This document shows positions 20,006 through 38,172 of a DNA stretch of 39,302 nt, in pieces. The stretch covers positions 1-39,302 of the forward strand of contig JAJYME010000008.1 in NCBI GenBank assembly GCA_021787205.1. Reading direction: 5' to 3'. A program made the translations under genes and the position numbers. The stretch's first letter is position 1, and the number at the start of each line of letters is the position of its first letter. The stretch is from a bacterium (GTDB taxonomy: Bacteria > Patescibacteriota > Minisyncoccia > UBA6257 > Colwellbacteraceae). The notes beneath the pieces are model-generated. The model saw only the letters and a list, made by a program, of their open reading frames with translations. It was not told where the DNA came from and searched no databases.

Positions 20006-21256
20006 ATGAAAAATCTTTTCAGGAAAAACTCCGCTTTTACAATCGTCGAGCTTCTGATAACGATTGCCATTGTGATTATTCTCGCTTCCTCGGTTGTCCT
20101 CTATCTTAATCCGGTACAGCGCCTTGCTGAAGGCAGGGATAGTCGTCGCACTAACGAGCTCAACCAGATCTCGGCTGCTCTTAGACTTGTTTATAACCAA
20201 GGCAAAATCAAGGGTAATTCTCAGGTGGTTTATCTTTCTCTGCCGGATTCGTCCGCCACTTGCGGCTCCTATTCTTTGCCGCAGTTGCCCTCAGGTTGGT
20301 CATACGCCTGCGCCCCTTCAGCGACCTATCTTAATGTCGATGGCACCGGTTGGATCCCGGTCAATTTTAACGTCATCCCCGGGGGTTCGACCTTATCCTT
20401 TATTCCGGCTGACCCAAGGAATACCCAGGATTTTTATTATGCCTATGTCACCGACCCGACGGATCACACTTTCGTCGTGACCTCTCTTCTGGAATCTGAA
20501 AAGCATATGAAACTTGCCGCTGCTAAAGACAATGGTTATGACGCCGGGCGTTATGAAGTCGGTTCTAAGGTGGCTTTATGGGGCGATGCCGCCGGCCTTG
20601 TTGCTTATTGGCCGCTGAATGAGGGCAGTGGAAGTGTGATTCATGATTATTCGAGTTCTGCGGCAAATCTGACGGCTTATTCTTTGGTAAACTGGGTTGC
20701 TGGTAAAAACGGCCCTGGAGTCCAGATGGATCCGACAATCTCTACCGGTTGCACAAACCAAAACGCGGGTATTTATAGCAACTCCCTCCCAGCTGCAATT
20801 AAGAATCTTCCCGCGGGAAAGTTCACCCTCTCATGGTGGAACTATCTTCCGTCGAACAGTGGAGTTGCGAGGGTGCATCTGGCGACAACCATCCCAGTGA
20901 CAAGCTGCGGCAACTGCTCTATCTGGAATCGAGTTAATTCAGTCACGACCAATGCATCCGGATATTCCTCGGCTAGTCTTACATACTCAGCTCCATCCAT
21001 AAACGTCTGGCATCATTTTGCTTATACATTTGATCCCATCTCTGGTCAGTCTTATATGTATGTGGACGGCAAACAGACGGCGAGCGGAGCTTTGATTGCC
21101 GGTGGCAATTACGGGACAATCCAATGGGTTGGAATTGGTGTTTACACGCCATCTTGCGTTGATTCGATTCCTGGGCAAATTTTGAATCATGTCCGACTCT
21201 ACAACAGATTGTTGTCCCCAGTAGAAATCCAGTCTGCTTATTCTTCAGAAAGATAG
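20006..21256 (+). CDS. type IV pilin-like protein with C-terminal LamG/concanavalin-like domain
   Basis: SAFTIVELLITIAIVIILASSVVLYL; GLVAYWPLNEGSGSVIHDYSS...WHHFAYTFDPISGQSYMYVDGKQ...VRLYNRLLSPVEIQSAYSSER. Confidence 0.85.
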   Translation: MKNLFRKNSAFTIVELLITIAIVIILASSVVLYLNPVQRLAEGRDSRRTNELNQISAALRLVYNQGKIKGNSQVVYLSLPDSSATCGSYSLPQLPSGWSYACAPSATYLNVDGTGWIPVNFNVIPGGSTLSFIPADPRNTQDFYYAYVTDPTDHTFVVTSLLESEKHMKLAAAKDNGYDAGRYEVGSKVALWGDAAGLVAYWPLNEGSGSVIHDYSSSAANLTAYSLVNWVAGKNGPGVQMDPTISTGCTNQNAGIYSNSLPAAIKNLPAGKFTLSWWNYLPSNSGVARVHLATTIPVTSCGNCSIWNRVNSVTTNASGYSSASLTYSAPSINVWHHFAYTFDPISGQSYMYVDGKQTASGALIAGGNYGTIQWVGIGVYTPSCVDSIPGQILNHVRLYNRLLSPVEIQSAYSSER

Positions 21257-27053: not shown

Positions 27054-27075
27054 TGATTCATCGCTTAATTCGGCT

Positions 27076-27104
27076 TTGACTAACGCTCGGGAATCTTTTA
27101 TTAT
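27076..27104 (+). promoter_or_regulatory. sigma70 promoter TTGACT-17-TATTAT driving the tRNA-Ala cluster
   Basis: -35 27076-27081, 17 nt spacer, -10 27099-27104; tRNA-like 5' half begins at 27123. Confidence 0.65.
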
Positions 27105-27122
27105 ATGGAACATATTAACCAT

Positions 27123-27169
27123 GGGCCGTTAGCTTAGTTGGTAGCGGATAAACAGGTTTATCCATTTGC
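27123..27169 (+). other. 5' part of an interrupted tRNA-Ala
   Basis: GGGCCGTTAGCTTAGTTGGTAGCGG...CCATTTGC; its acceptor strand GGGCCGT pairs fully (with G3-U70) with ACGGTCC of the downstream 3' halves, not with the intact tRNA. Confidence 0.7.
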
Positions 27170-27192
27170 TTTCATTTTTAAATATATGGGCC
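27170..27192 (+). repeat. left arm of inverted repeat
   Basis: TTTCA-TTTTTAAATATAT-GGGCC complementary to 27269-27292 with one bulge and one G-U. Confidence 0.85.
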
Positions 27193-27260
27193 GGTAGCTT
27201 AGTTGGCAGAGCGCCACATTTGCAATGTGGAGGTCGTGGGTTCGACTCCCATCCGGTCCA
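27188..27260 (+). tRNA. tRNA-Ala (anticodon UGC), complete, lying inside the interruption
   Basis: GGGCCGG/CCGGTCC acceptor with G3-U70, CCACA-TTTGCAA-TGTGG, GTGGG-TTCGACT-CCCAT. Confidence 0.93.
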
Positions 27261-27400
27261 CCGATACGGGCTCATATATTTAAAAATTGAAACCATGTGG
27301 AGGTCAGCGGTTCGACTCCGCTACGGTCCACTGATACGGGCTCATATATTTAAAAATTGAAACCATGTGGAGGTCAGCGGTTCGACTCCGCTACGGTCCA
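27261..27400 (+). repeat. two tandem 70-bp direct repeats, each = inverted-repeat right arm + tRNA-Ala 3' half
   Basis: 27261-27330 and 27331-27400 differ at one base (CCGATA/CTGATA). Confidence 0.95.
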
Positions 27401-27402
27401 CA

Positions 27403-27445
27403 AAAAAACAGCGAGTTAGTCTCGCTGTTTTTATTATTTTTTTTC
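27403..27445 (+). terminator. intrinsic terminator closing the tRNA cluster; shared with the convergent zinc-ribbon gene
   Basis: AAACAGCGAG-TTAGT-CTCGCTGTTT with T/A runs. Confidence 0.8.
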
Positions 27446-27688
27446 TCTCCAATAGGGAAGGGTCGCCATGTTTGAAACGGTCAGGTTTTCCGCCTCTTCT
27501 CTCGAGGCGCCGGTAGCTTCCATAAAATATTTTACTCCGCCTTCTTTGATCTCGTCGTAAGAACCGACGGTTCCGGTTTCTTGGCTTTGGCAATAGACGC
27601 AGAAACCATTGCTGAATTTAGAAACTTCATCGGGGTTTTCCAAGGGCATTCCGCAAGCTTGGCAGGTATTTGTGTTTTCCATTTCCAT
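27434..27688 (-). CDS. small putative zinc-ribbon protein
   Basis: CQACGMPLENPDEVSKFSNGFCVYCQ (two CxxC); exact start uncertain. Confidence 0.75.
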   Translation of the reverse strand: MEMENTNTCQACGMPLENPDEVSKFSNGFCVYCQSQETGTVGSYDEIKEGGVKYFMEATGASREEAENLTVSNMATLPYWREKK

Positions 27689-27775: not shown

Positions 27776-28876
27776 ATGAGGTCAAACAGGGCTTTTACGC
27801 TTATAGAACTTTTGATTGTTATCGGCATCATTGCCATTATGAGCTCAATCGGCGTTGGGTATTATTTTGGCTACTATAAGCAGACCGTCCTTAGGTCCCA
27901 GGCTGACAAGATCAGCTCTTTCCTTTACCTTGTCCAACAGAAATCGATCGGCCAGGAGGGCAGGACTAACTGGGGCGTCCATTTTGAGAATCCTTCTACT
28001 GGCACTCCTTACTACGCCTCCTTCCAGGGGACTTCGTACTCGACTCCGGTAGAAAAGTTTTATCTCGATGGTTCTTTGACATACGAATATCCGGCAAGCG
28101 GCCAGAGCTTGGACGTGGTCTTCAGCAAGATTACCGGCAGGACTTACGATAATCAGTATAAGAAAATATATCTTAAGAATACGAGCGGGGAAGGAGATAG
28201 GTCTATTCGGGTGACGCCAATCGGGGTCATTGCCGTTGATGATGGAGAAGTGGCCTGGTGGAAGCTTGATGAGGGCAGCGGCACCTTGGCCGTCGATAAT
28301 ACTGTCTTTCGCTCCAACGCTTCTTTTGTCGGCGCTCCGACCTGGTCTCCAATAGCCGATTGCCGCGGCGAAAGCCAGTGTCTGACTTTCTCTGCCGGCA
28401 ACTACCTCTCCGTCGGCAATGCCGTTCCCTTGAGGATCACCGGCAACCAGACGATCATGATGTGGCTTTATCCGACAAGCTTCGCCTCCCGCCGAAATCC
28501 GTATAATAAGGCCTATGGCGGCGAGGGGACGATTACCCAGGAAACCAGCGGTTCCTTGAGTTATTATTACGGCACTTATGGCGGCGACGGTGGCTCCTAT
28601 CAAGGGTTTGGCAGCACTCCGATCACGATCAATACCTGGTCCCACGTGGCTATCGTGAGGGATCTGACCAATATGAAACTTTACTGGTATATAAACGGCA
28701 AGCAGGTCTCTATGACGAACGCTACTTATTCGGCGGCGGTCAGCGGCACCAACAGCGTTTACATCGGTCACGGCTATGCCGGCGATTATGTTGGCAGGAT
28801 TGACGATGTCAGAGTTTACGACCGGGCCCTGACAGGGGCTGAGATCAAGAAGATTTACGAGCAGACAAGACAATAA
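27776..28876 (+). CDS. type IV pilin/pseudopilin-like protein with C-terminal LamG-like domain
   Basis: RAFTLIELLIVIGIIAIMSSIGVGYYF; EVAWWKLDEGSGTLAVDN...WSHVAIVRDLTNMKLYWYINGKQ...GRIDDVRVYDRALTGAEIKKIYE. Confidence 0.87.
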   Translation: MRSNRAFTLIELLIVIGIIAIMSSIGVGYYFGYYKQTVLRSQADKISSFLYLVQQKSIGQEGRTNWGVHFENPSTGTPYYASFQGTSYSTPVEKFYLDGSLTYEYPASGQSLDVVFSKITGRTYDNQYKKIYLKNTSGEGDRSIRVTPIGVIAVDDGEVAWWKLDEGSGTLAVDNTVFRSNASFVGAPTWSPIADCRGESQCLTFSAGNYLSVGNAVPLRITGNQTIMMWLYPTSFASRRNPYNKAYGGEGTITQETSGSLSYYYGTYGGDGGSYQGFGSTPITINTWSHVAIVRDLTNMKLYWYINGKQVSMTNATYSAAVSGTNSVYIGHGYAGDYVGRIDDVRVYDRALTGAEIKKIYEQTRQ

Positions 28877-30611: not shown

Positions 30612-30637
30612 AAACGCCTTGCGGCGTTTTTTGTTTT
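30610..30637 (+). terminator. intrinsic terminator
   Basis: AAAAACGCC-TTGC-GGCGTTTTTTG. Confidence 0.8.
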
Positions 30638-30678
30638 TTCGCTTTTGCGATGACGATAGTTGTTGTATAATTTTATCA

Positions 30679-32337
30679 ATGAAAAAACAAAGAGGAATAA
30701 AAGGTTTTACTCTTGTTGAGCTTTTGATCTATACGGCCATCTTTACCATGACCGCCGGACTTTTGACGAGTATCTTGATTATGATCAGCAATATCCAAAC
30801 AAAGGAAAACGCATCATTCGAGGTTACCCGTCAGTTGCAATTCATTACCCAGACCGTCCAGTATGCCATTCGCGATTCGGCGGTCGTTGAAAAGGTATAT
30901 GAAGGAAATGATCCGGCTATTGCCTGTACCCAATTTTGCTCCGTCCTTCTCCGTGAGTCCGATCCGACTCTTGATCCTACCATAATCACTTCCGATGCCG
31001 GAGGGGTCTATATCCAAGAAGGCGCCAATCCGAAGGTTCCTCTGACCTCGACCAAGGTGAGGGTATCAGGCCTGACTTTCAAAAAGACGGATAACCCTGG
31101 CGGCATGTCCACGACGGCAGTCAGCCTTTCCATTGTTTATGACGGAGGCACTCCGGAACTTACCTTTTCCAAATCCCTGACCTCTGCCATCGCCCACGTC
31201 CAGGCCGCCACCTTCGATTCCGAACTCCTGCCTGACACTGATGCCGCAAGAGGGATAGGTAGCTCGACTTTGAGATGGAAGGATGCGACCTTGTCGAATG
31301 GGATTACGATTGTCGGCCCTGAAGCCGTCGGAGATTCGGCTAACATCACGATGAGAATGGGAACGGCTCACGGCTCAAGCAATATAAGCCAATATTATGC
31401 TTCCGGCACTCCCGACAAATATGGTGCCCATATGGATGTCGGCGGCACGCCTTTGCTTTATTTGGAAGCTGACAGCGGCACCGCGACCAGGAGATCATAT
31501 CTTTTGAATAGTAACTTAGGAATCGGGACGGCGAACCCGACATCTCCACTTAATGTGTACAACAATACGGTCTGGACTTCTTATGCCGATAACGAGTACC
31601 CTGCTATCTTTAGAACCAATAGCTATGTTGGCATAAAGGTCAAAGCCGATGGTAATGGCTACGCGCCGGCTTCCGTTGTATTGGAATCAACACAAGGGAC
31701 ATCAAGAGGTCAGGGTATATATTATTCTAATTCTACTACAAGCAATCTATGGTTTTCTGGAACGCCTTATACCAGTTCAAATGATAGGTATATTGTGGCT
31801 TATAAGAGTTCGGCAACTTTTACAGGTGATGTTGCTCAAACTGGCAATGCCTTAATGACAGTTCTAACAAACGGGAATGTCGGTATAGGTATGGTTCCGA
31901 CCTACAAGCTTGATGTTACTGGGGATCTGAGAATCACCGGCACGCCCTATAGAGCCGGTGGGGATATCGCTTGGACCGTCCCTTCTGACGCTAGGTTGAA
32001 GAATATCAAAGGCGATTATACTTCCGGTCTCAAGGAAATCTTAGCCCTGACTCCGGTCCGTTATACCTATAAGGAGAATAAGGAAATGGAGCTTCGCTCC
32101 GACAAGGAATATGTCGGTATTATCGCCCAGGAAGCCCAGAAGGTAATCCCGGAATCAGTTTCGACCGATAGTCGCAATGGCTATCTGACTCTTAATACCA
32201 CCCCGATCTTTTGGAGCATTATCAATGCCATTAAGGATCTGAATAAGTCCGATGATGATTTGAGGGCTCAGATAAAGAGTCAGCAAGAGCAGATAAACGC
32301 CCTTGAGGCCCGGCTTAAGTCCTTGGAGAACAGGTAG
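30679..32337 (+). CDS. prepilin-like protein with C-terminal S74-type tail-fibre intramolecular chaperone domain
   Basis: GFTLVELLIYTAIFTMTAGLL N-terminus; C-terminal NVGIGMVPTYKLDVTGDLRI...SDARLKNIKGDYTSGLKEILALTPVRYTYK...YVGIIAQEAQKVIPESV...NALEARLKSLENR. Confidence 0.87.
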   Translation: MKKQRGIKGFTLVELLIYTAIFTMTAGLLTSILIMISNIQTKENASFEVTRQLQFITQTVQYAIRDSAVVEKVYEGNDPAIACTQFCSVLLRESDPTLDPTIITSDAGGVYIQEGANPKVPLTSTKVRVSGLTFKKTDNPGGMSTTAVSLSIVYDGGTPELTFSKSLTSAIAHVQAATFDSELLPDTDAARGIGSSTLRWKDATLSNGITIVGPEAVGDSANITMRMGTAHGSSNISQYYASGTPDKYGAHMDVGGTPLLYLEADSGTATRRSYLLNSNLGIGTANPTSPLNVYNNTVWTSYADNEYPAIFRTNSYVGIKVKADGNGYAPASVVLESTQGTSRGQGIYYSNSTTSNLWFSGTPYTSSNDRYIVAYKSSATFTGDVAQTGNALMTVLTNGNVGIGMVPTYKLDVTGDLRITGTPYRAGGDIAWTVPSDARLKNIKGDYTSGLKEILALTPVRYTYKENKEMELRSDKEYVGIIAQEAQKVIPESVSTDSRNGYLTLNTTPIFWSIINAIKDLNKSDDDLRAQIKSQQEQINALEARLKSLENR

Positions 32338-36399: not shown

Positions 36400-38172
36400 A
36401 TGGACGCTAGAAAACTTGCAGAAGAATTAATAAAAAAAGGCGCCATCTCGGATGAGTTGGCCCAGAGGATTATCAATGAGGCGGCGGCAAGAGCTTACCC
36501 CTTTGAGAAGCTTTTGTATGAAAAAAGGCTTATTGATGAGGTCGCTGTCGCTAATGCCAAATCGGCAATCTTGGGCATCCCTTATCAGAAGATAGACCCG
36601 ACGACAGTCTCAGACGATGTCCTTAAGCTTATCCCCGTTGAAACGGCACAATCTTATGGCATTGTGCCGATTAGCGTCACTAAGGATATGGCAATCGTCG
36701 GCATGGTTAATCCGGACAATGTCGAAGCCCAGGAAGCGCTTAAGTTCCTGGCTCAACAGAATAAGATCTCTCTCGGAGTCTATATCATTACCCCGACTGA
36801 TTTTGAGCTTATCATGCGCCGCTATGTTCCTTTTGAAAAAGAAATCCAGCAAGCATTGAAAGCTATCAATATCAAGGTCTTGGGGCAGACGACCGTCGGT
36901 CAGAAAGTTGTCTCCTTGGATGAAGAGAAGGCTTCAGCTGATGAAGCGCCGGTCATTAAGATCGTCTCCTCGATTCTCCGTGCTGCTGTCGACCAGAAGG
37001 CATCCGATATTCACATAGAACCCCAAAGAGGGAGACTCAGGATCCGTTTTCGTTTGGATGGAAACCTGAAAGAAATCCAATCTTTGCCGATAGAGCTTTG
37101 CGCTGCGATTACCGCTCGCGTCAAAGTCTTGGCCGATCTTAAGATCGATGAGACTCGTATCCCTCAAGACGGAAGGTTCAGAACTATTATCTTTGGACGT
37201 GATGTCGATTATCGTGTCGCCACCCTGCCTACTCCTCTCGGAGAGAAGGTGGTTATCCGTGTTTTGGATCCGCTTTCGACCGTCAAAAATCTCTCCGATT
37301 TGGGACTCGTCGGCCAGAACGCCGAGTGGATCCAGGAAGCCCTAGATAAACCGTTCGGGATGGTCTTGGTCACCGGTCCTACGGGATCTGGTAAGACGAC
37401 CACCTTGTATGCTTTCTTGCAACAATTGAACACCGAGGACGTCAATATCATGAGCATGGAAGATCCGGTTGAATATTTCGTTGATGGGGTAAACCAGTCT
37501 CAGATGAAACCGGAAATCGGCTATACTTTCGCCGCCGGTTTGAGACAGGCTCTGCGTCAAGATCCGGATATCATCATGGTCGGTGAGATCCGCGATGGTG
37601 AGACGGCTTCTCTGGCTGTCCAGGCGGCTCTGACCGGTCACACGGTCCTATCAACCTTGCATACCAATAATGCCGCCGGTGTTATTCCGAGATTGGTTGA
37701 TATGAAGGTTGCGCCTTATCTCTTGCCTCCGGCTTTGTCTATTATGATTGCCCAACGTCTCACAAGGAGGCTTTGCCCGAAGTGCAAGCATCCGGTTCCT
37801 GCGACGCCGGAACAAACCAGGATCATTGAGGAAACCTTGAAGGATATGGCTTCGCGCGTTCGCGAAACCGCTTCTCAAAAGACAGCGCCTTTCCAAGTTT
37901 GGGAGGCTCCGGGTTGCGACTTCTGCAAGGGCAAAGGAACCAAGGGAAGAATGGCAATCTATGAATCGATGAAGATGACCCGCGAGCTCGAAGACGTCAT
38001 AGTCAAGGAGCCGTCCGAAGGTAAGGTGAGAGATGAAGGAAAAAGACAGGGTATGGTCACCTTAAGGCAGGATGGAATCTTGAAAGTTCTGGATGGATCG
38101 ATCGGCATCGAAGAAGTTCTGCGCGAGACGGAAGCTGTCGAGCCGGAAGAGACTGAAACTCAATCATCATAA
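36400..38172 (+). CDS. pilB: type IV pilus/type II secretion assembly ATPase (PilB/GspE)
   Basis: GPTGSGKTTTLYAFL Walker A; MSMEDPVEY; LRQDPDIIMVGEIRDGETASLAVQAALTGH; zinc CPKC...CDFC. Confidence 0.95.
   Translation: MDARKLAEELIKKGAISDELAQRIINEAAARAYPFEKLLYEKRLIDEVAVANAKSAILGIPYQKIDPTTVSDDVLKLIPVETAQSYGIVPISVTKDMAIVGMVNPDNVEAQEALKFLAQQNKISLGVYIITPTDFELIMRRYVPFEKEIQQALKAINIKVLGQTTVGQKVVSLDEEKASADEAPVIKIVSSILRAAVDQKASDIHIEPQRGRLRIRFRLDGNLKEIQSLPIELCAAITARVKVLADLKIDETRIPQDGRFRTIIFGRDVDYRVATLPTPLGEKVVIRVLDPLSTVKNLSDLGLVGQNAEWIQEALDKPFGMVLVTGPTGSGKTTTLYAFLQQLNTEDVNIMSMEDPVEYFVDGVNQSQMKPEIGYTFAAGLRQALRQDPDIIMVGEIRDGETASLAVQAALTGHTVLSTLHTNNAAGVIPRLVDMKVAPYLLPPALSIMIAQRLTRRLCPKCKHPVPATPEQTRIIEETLKDMASRVRETASQKTAPFQVWEAPGCDFCKGKGTKGRMAIYESMKMTRELEDVIVKEPSEGKVRDEGKRQGMVTLRQDGILKVLDGSIGIEEVLRETEAVEPEETETQSS

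Follow-up and report, generated by a model that had tools for sequence, protein, structure and literature searches.

A tRNA-Ala(UGC) gene nested within a split tRNA-Ala gene is one case of a recurrent arrangement in Patescibacteria

The 39,302-nucleotide stretch of Patescibacteria DNA analyzed here, referred to as the window, contains a complete tRNA-Ala(UGC) gene that lies between two complementary arms within the anticodon region of another, broken tRNA-Ala gene. This nested arrangement is confirmed, and it is one case of an arrangement that recurs in Patescibacteria. The open-access literature searched contained no earlier account of nested tRNA genes from Patescibacteria. We consider it probable that such nests form when a very small tRNA cassette flanked by stems breaks a resident tRNA gene in two and takes over its role, and that the window locus is a relic of that process, the outer tRNA parts (the shell) being what is left of the former resident.

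Anatomy of the window locus

The genome from which the window derives (G000) spans 616 kb in 11 contigs and is 96% complete. A preliminary description had reported a promoter, an outer tRNA 5′ part, inverted-repeat arms, an inner tRNA-Ala(UGC), an outer 3′ half and a terminator, and each of these was found in the place given for it. The parts of the locus are as follows.

27076–27104, + strand: sigma-70-like promoter TTGACT-17-TATTAT, 5′ of the outer tRNA (−35 TTGACT at 27076–27081, −10 TATTAT at 27099–27104), from the sequence
27123–27145, + strand: 5′ part of the shell tRNA-Ala, with acceptor strand GGGCCGT and the start of the D arm, GCTTAGTTGGTAGC; all seven acceptor positions pair with ACGGTCC in the 3′ halves
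27146–27163, + strand: palindrome P1, GGATAAAC-AG-GTTTATCC, a perfect 8-bp inverted repeat
27164–27169, + strand: remnant of the shell anticodon loop, ATTTGC, from the sequence
27170–27187, + strand: left arm of the insert, TTTCATTTTTAAATATAT, complementary to 27274–27292
27188–27260, + strand: complete inner tRNA-Ala(UGC); Rfam tRNA 70.2 bits, ARAGORN, genome tRNA census
27261–27294, + strand: right side of the insert, CCGATACGGGCTC, plus arm ATATATTTAAAAATTGAAACC; inverted repeat 91% over 23 nt
27274–27294, + strand: the right arm itself, opposite the left arm
27295–27330, + strand: 3′ half of the shell tRNA-Ala, copy 1 (3′ strand of the anticodon stem, T arm and acceptor ACGGTCCA), from the sequence
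27331–27364, + strand: second copy of the right arm/spacer, by the 70-nt tandem repeat
27365–27400, + strand: 3′ half of the shell tRNA-Ala, copy 2, identical to copy 1
27404–27432, + strand: intrinsic terminator, AAAAACAGCGAG-TTAGT-CTCGCTGTTTTT, a 12-bp perfect inverted repeat

The nest proper occupies 27123–27401, and the region from promoter to terminator (27076–27432) reads as one transcription unit. According to Rfam and ARAGORN the inner gene has a full cloverleaf, a UGC anticodon and G3·U70, and across 27060–27450 it is the sole tRNA match above threshold in Rfam and likewise the only one in ARAGORN. The genome census returned 42 tRNAs; each anticodon has one copy, except that there are two Met genes. 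No Ala(UGC) gene other than the inner one was detected in the 616 kb.

The outer acceptor strands GGGCCGT and ACGGTCC pair in all seven positions, including G3·U70, as had been described. The outer D arm had been characterized as 2 nt short. It is indeed defective, but the defect goes beyond two nucleotides: the P1 hairpin (GGATAAACAGGTTTATCC, 27146–27163) follows GGTAGC and occupies the place of the end of the D stem and the 5′ strand of the shell's anticodon stem. Hairpins at comparable positions occur in the shells of loci L114, L119, L122 and L108. Similarly, the single outer 3′ half noted earlier is present at 27295–27330, but its second copy at 27365–27400 had been overlooked. Both copies belong to a 70-nt tandem repeat whose units start at 27225, 27295 and 27365, the first within the inner tRNA. 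The canonical Ala anticodon loop is TTTGCAA, and joining the outer 5′ and 3′ halves, with or without P1, gave no valid tRNA in ARAGORN. The sole Ala(UGC) status of the inner tRNA and the non-rejoinable shell both count in favor of a takeover.

The window shares the anatomy of the nested class described below, namely a complete tRNA between complementary arms within the anticodon region of another tRNA, with the same amino acid (Ala) inside and outside. Its arms end in TTTC...GAAACC, however, and lack the usual (C/T)CCCG...CGGG(A/G) ends, the sole resemblance being TACGGG beside the inner tRNA, so that class membership rests on architecture. Elsewhere in the window, pilin-like N_methyl proteins fused to LamG or endosialidase-chaperone domains are encoded at 20006–21256, 27776–28876, 30619–32337 and 36400–38172, with a type II/IV secretion ATPase near these genes.

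Recurrence and shared anatomy of nests

A loose pattern of two T arms 41–70 nt apart, closer than ordinary tRNA neighbors allow, was matched in 26 of 245 genomes of the order and in 62 of 384 sampled genomes of the phylum. Most of the matches inspected had outer tRNA parts flanking a complete tRNA, although not every match is a nest. In Pseudomonadota, whose genomes are each several times larger, 7 of 200 matched the same pattern, without an obvious nest. A stricter scan of species genomes yielded at least 120 candidate loci; among the matches listed, 61 passed an automatic filter (inner tRNA present, outer acceptor pairing at least 6/7), and 48 nests were retained after doubtful ones had been removed by hand. 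Nearly all of these 48 are in Patescibacteria. Nests also occur outside this group, in metagenome-assembled genomes labelled Bacteroidetes (L110, Leu), Elusimicrobia (L113, Leu) and Endomicrobiia (L140, Thr). As a false-positive control, the same pattern gave 54 matches on viral contigs, none of them a nest with 7/7 outer acceptor pairing. The arrangement thus recurs in dozens of unrelated genomes, more than chance would give.

This recurrence bears on whether short and inverted repeats led to a misassembly of the locus, the source being a metagenome-assembled genome. Its 11 contigs, and the well-known difficulty of assembling features such as the 70-nt repeat and the inverted arms, would speak for an artefact. 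The architecture is nevertheless present in dozens of assemblies made independently, with sequences specific to each genome, and related pairs have flanking genes in common. An artefact is therefore extremely improbable.

Insert ends are commonly, but not universally, (C/T)CCCG...CGGG(A/G), that is, CCCCG...CGGGG or TCCCG...CGGGA. The scan pattern demanded CGGGR on the right side, so the right end motif is partly selected, whereas the left end and the pairing of the arms are free of selection. The arms vary in sequence between genomes yet pair, and the inserts of compact nests are only ~100–140 nt long. Subclasses of insert end and site, read by eye among the matches listed, are as follows.

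Ala nests: TTTG, then insert TCCCG..CGGGA, then CAA
Glu(CTC) nests: TTC, then insert CTTGCCCCG..CGGGG, then TCAA
Arg(GCG/CCG) nests: like the Glu nests
Pro, Thr and Arg(CCT) nests: CCTGCCCGCC..GGCAGGCGGG
Type 1 nests (Val, Glu(UUC), Met): TTCACCCCG..CGGGGCARG, with CA of the loop replaced

In type 1 inserts the CA is replaced at differing loop positions in Val-UAC, Val-GAC, Val-CAC, Glu-UUC and Met, which would fit a target sequence better than a fixed intron position. The entire anticodon arm is absent from the Leu, Tyr, Ser and Lys nests. As at the window locus, the stretch from D arm to insert often contains an extra palindrome. Palindromes such as CCTGCCTGCCGGCAGGCAGG also occur within the D loop, anticodon region, variable region or T loop of Patescibacteria tRNA genes and shells (L067, L077, L095, L131, L044, L039).

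These features also speak to a spliced nested tRNA, in which the insert would be a tRNA-carrying intron and the outer tRNA would mature after its removal. Exact removal gives a complete anticodon loop in the seven hand-cut nests tested (Pro, Arg, Glu-CTC, Ala), so that splicing is conceivable in these, and in the predicted fold the arms bring the exons together. However, no outer tRNA can be recovered in this way from the window or from the type 1, Arg(UCG), Leu, Tyr, Ser and Lys nests; type 1 loops lack the CA dinucleotide, so that removal of the insert cannot restore the anticodon loop. The insertion position varies, Rfam intron families are absent from 27060–27450 (E up to 1) and from 16 related loci (gathering threshold), and where the outer anticodon is restored it equals the inner one, making the outer tRNA redundant. 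Splicing is accordingly a poor candidate, and the earlier proposal of a nested tRNA processed from one transcript found no support in the window, where the outer anticodon arm is destroyed. A fixed-position intron as a general explanation was rejected because the break position varies and type 1 inserts remove CA.

The shell and the inner tRNA are usually matched in amino acid. The nearest neighbor of the shell has the amino acid of the inner tRNA in 37 of the 48 nests among the matches listed (shuffled mean 6, maximum 14), and the discriminator base is the same in shell and inner tRNA in 45 of these 48. Five Arg(UCG) nests from distant lineages (L104, L106, L127, L133, L194) have a common internal loop, YGGAGTYTA/GA, and covarying anticodon stems. 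The exact Arg(UCG) motif occurs in only 1 of 384 phylum genomes, indicating a patchy spread, and the idea of a single shared Arg(UCG) element was dropped on this count.

Stem comparisons between inner tRNA and shell gave 160 compensated and 9 broken differences among the matches listed. Since most pairs differ by several compensated changes, the inner tRNA is not a fresh copy of the shell; such differences would fit a newcomer with a separate ancestry. In L099, L119 and L158 no difference was seen between the stems compared, as might be expected of a recent source in the same lineage. These identical stems, together with the plain tandem repeats of 3′ half and spacer in the window and in L311, could also be taken as recombination debris, that is, the outcome of stepwise tandem and inverted duplications at a tRNA gene with no mobile unit. 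The several compensated changes in most pairs stand against debris, as does the recurrence of the insert ends and of target replacement across genomes, and we regard it as unlikely.

Resident, newcomer and shell decay

The direction of events can be read in one genus (g16) of the window's family. Genome G021 carries a tRNA-Met nest whose shell reads GCCGGCG...GGGACT, insert, TAAACCC...CGTCGGC and is, outside the insert, 100% identical to the uninterrupted tRNA-Met of its congener G015, which lies at the same locus, upstream of the same gene. In the G021 loop, the CA of CAT has been swapped for an arm, a different tRNA-Met and an arm. In a further congener, G024, the tRNA-Met at this locus is also uninterrupted and has the same acceptor and T arm. 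Because the G021 shell is identical to the resident tRNA-Met of G015, it represents the gene that was there first, and the inner tRNA is the later arrival. This is the only resolved filled/empty pair, and it concerns tRNA-Met rather than tRNA-Ala; in a second congener comparison (Arg-CCU, G105), resident and newcomer could not be told apart. The G021 nest is one and the same as that of L101 (G021:C43). An initial assignment of its outer tRNA as a sole Thr isoacceptor was discarded, a separate Thr(UGU) gene being present and the G015 comparison pointing to Met. The G021/G015 pair and the non-rejoinable halves in the window show the alternative suggestion of the preliminary description, a decayed tRNA that captured another, to have been essentially right.

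Two further observations concern G015. At the end of contig C1 (L332), the 3′ end of a GIY-YIG nuclease gene lies directly upstream of the intact tRNA-Met. On contig C5 (L484), the 5′ part of a tRNA-Met, whose D loop contains a palindrome, precedes a short GIY-YIG start, with a D12 methyltransferase, a PD-(D/E)XK nuclease and an IS1595 transposase nearby. L332 and L484 may represent a larger insertion at the same tRNA locus.

Shells elsewhere have lost parts or acquired layers. The 5′ half is lost and the 3′ half kept in L315 relative to L314 (Cys), and in L308 and L311 relative to L309 (Val), and a palindrome lies in the T loop of the L044 shell. Locus L324 contains several stacked tRNA-Val 5′ parts, one complete tRNA-Val(CAC) and then two 3′ halves, with near-identical arms around two of the Val layers, and in L158 the 5′ copies are repeated. 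Taken together, the 5′-half losses, the L044 palindrome and the layers of L324 and L158 support what appear to be repeated takeovers and decay. Tandem tRNA 3′ halves with spacer, resembling the 70-nt repeat of the window, are also found in L311 (G588) and L316 (G508).

Many shells nevertheless remain intact in their stems: among the matches listed, the nests have 356 of 364 acceptor pairs and 153 of 156 unconditioned T-stem pairs. For several nests with the same amino acid inside and outside, distantly related genomes have the flanking genes in common, and the syntenic Tyr pair L157/L160 has compensatory shell changes and several neighboring genes in common. These observations, along with the matching discriminator bases and the five Arg(UCG) nests, would favor a functional architecture in which decoding falls to the inner tRNA and selection retains the acceptor, D arm and T arm of the shell as a tRNA-shaped module for processing or protection, in the manner of a naturally occurring tRNA scaffold. 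However, the strict search demanded an intact T-arm core and acceptor, filtering out decayed shells, so stem pairing alone cannot decide between a relic and a maintained shell. Moreover, the G021 shell is simply the resident tRNA of G015, and intact stems are to be expected after a recent insertion. Close relatives that drop the 5′ half and the palindrome in the L044 T loop also argue against maintenance, which we judge to be doubtful.

A candidate takeover mechanism and known systems

For the window, a cassette consisting of a complete tRNA-Ala(UGC) and two complementary arms would have entered the anticodon region of the resident tRNA-Ala, after which the inner tRNA would decode and the split resident would be left to decay. 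The shell would afterwards have been changed by a palindrome and by the 70-nt tandem duplication of its 3′ half. This account supposes that the cassette moves as one unit, that, with one gene per isoacceptor in these genomes, insertions are survivable only where the amino acid is the same, and that the window nest arose by the same route as the G021-type insertion. The recurring insert ends and pairing arms, as read in the sequences, count in favor of a cassette. Against it, no transposase, integrase or reverse transcriptase is so far tied to the nests, and the flanking genes shared across deep divergence together with the paired stems could mean that shells are maintained. A GIY-YIG homing endonuclease was rejected as driver, such a gene lying within 1.5 kb of only 1 of the 61 filtered loci among the matches listed. 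Carriage by phage was also rejected: the type 1 arm pattern had 68 matches in viral contigs, in none of which the arms enclose a tRNA, and the viral contigs yielded no convincing nest.

Nests may be compared with several known systems. Genomic islands integrated by tyrosine integrases (Islander) split tRNA genes and bring a sequence that regenerates the target, the displaced fragment marking the far end, and anticodon-loop targets are known (PMC4383910). Nests resemble these islands in that a tRNA gene is split and the target function regenerated, but what they carry between inverted arms is an entire tRNA rather than a substitute 3′ part, both old halves remain as a shell, and the compact, arm-flanked insert lacks an integrase and has no room for any gene.

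In archaea, the halves of intron-containing and split tRNAs are parted in the anticodon loop and joined via complementary arms, with splicing at a bulge-helix-bulge. The resemblance to nests is in shape only: nests are bacterial, the insert holds a tRNA, the outer anticodon is often destroyed and the shell is a displaced resident. No consistent bulge-helix-bulge motif was seen at the junctions upon inspection by eye. The rtT repeats of E. coli tyrT, in which 3′ tRNA fragments are repeated downstream of a tRNA gene, are tandem and carry the 3′ end of the adjacent tRNA like the 70-nt repeats of the window, but they have no upstream 5′ half, inverted arms or nesting, and the window repeat extends as far back as the anticodon stem. 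Rickettsia palindromic elements and REP/MITE-like palindromes are small palindromes inserted within genes, comparable to CCTGCCTGCCGGCAGGCAGG inside tRNA genes here (L067, L095, L131); unlike nest inserts, they bring no tRNA and do not take the place of the gene into which they insert. In the engineered tRNA scaffold, an RNA is placed where the anticodon arm of a tRNA was, and nests similarly present a foreign structured RNA on the extended anticodon stem of a tRNA shell, although the scaffold is artificial and displaces no resident gene.

More tentatively, stem-flanked tRNA cassettes of ~100–140 nt may be undescribed minimal selfish elements that spread between Patescibacteria via a matching tRNA anticodon loop, disable the gene and supply its replacement, so that the host becomes dependent; repeated rounds would then produce Russian-doll tRNA genes. 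If mobile, such cassettes would be among the smallest mobile elements known, enforcing host dependence through replacement of an essential gene. The filled and empty sites of G021 and G015 offer a handle for testing the mechanism. The nests suggest that, within a large bacterial radiation, essential tRNA genes present in one copy are replaced recurrently and in a way that is easy to overlook. tRNA finders report the inner gene alone and miss the shell.
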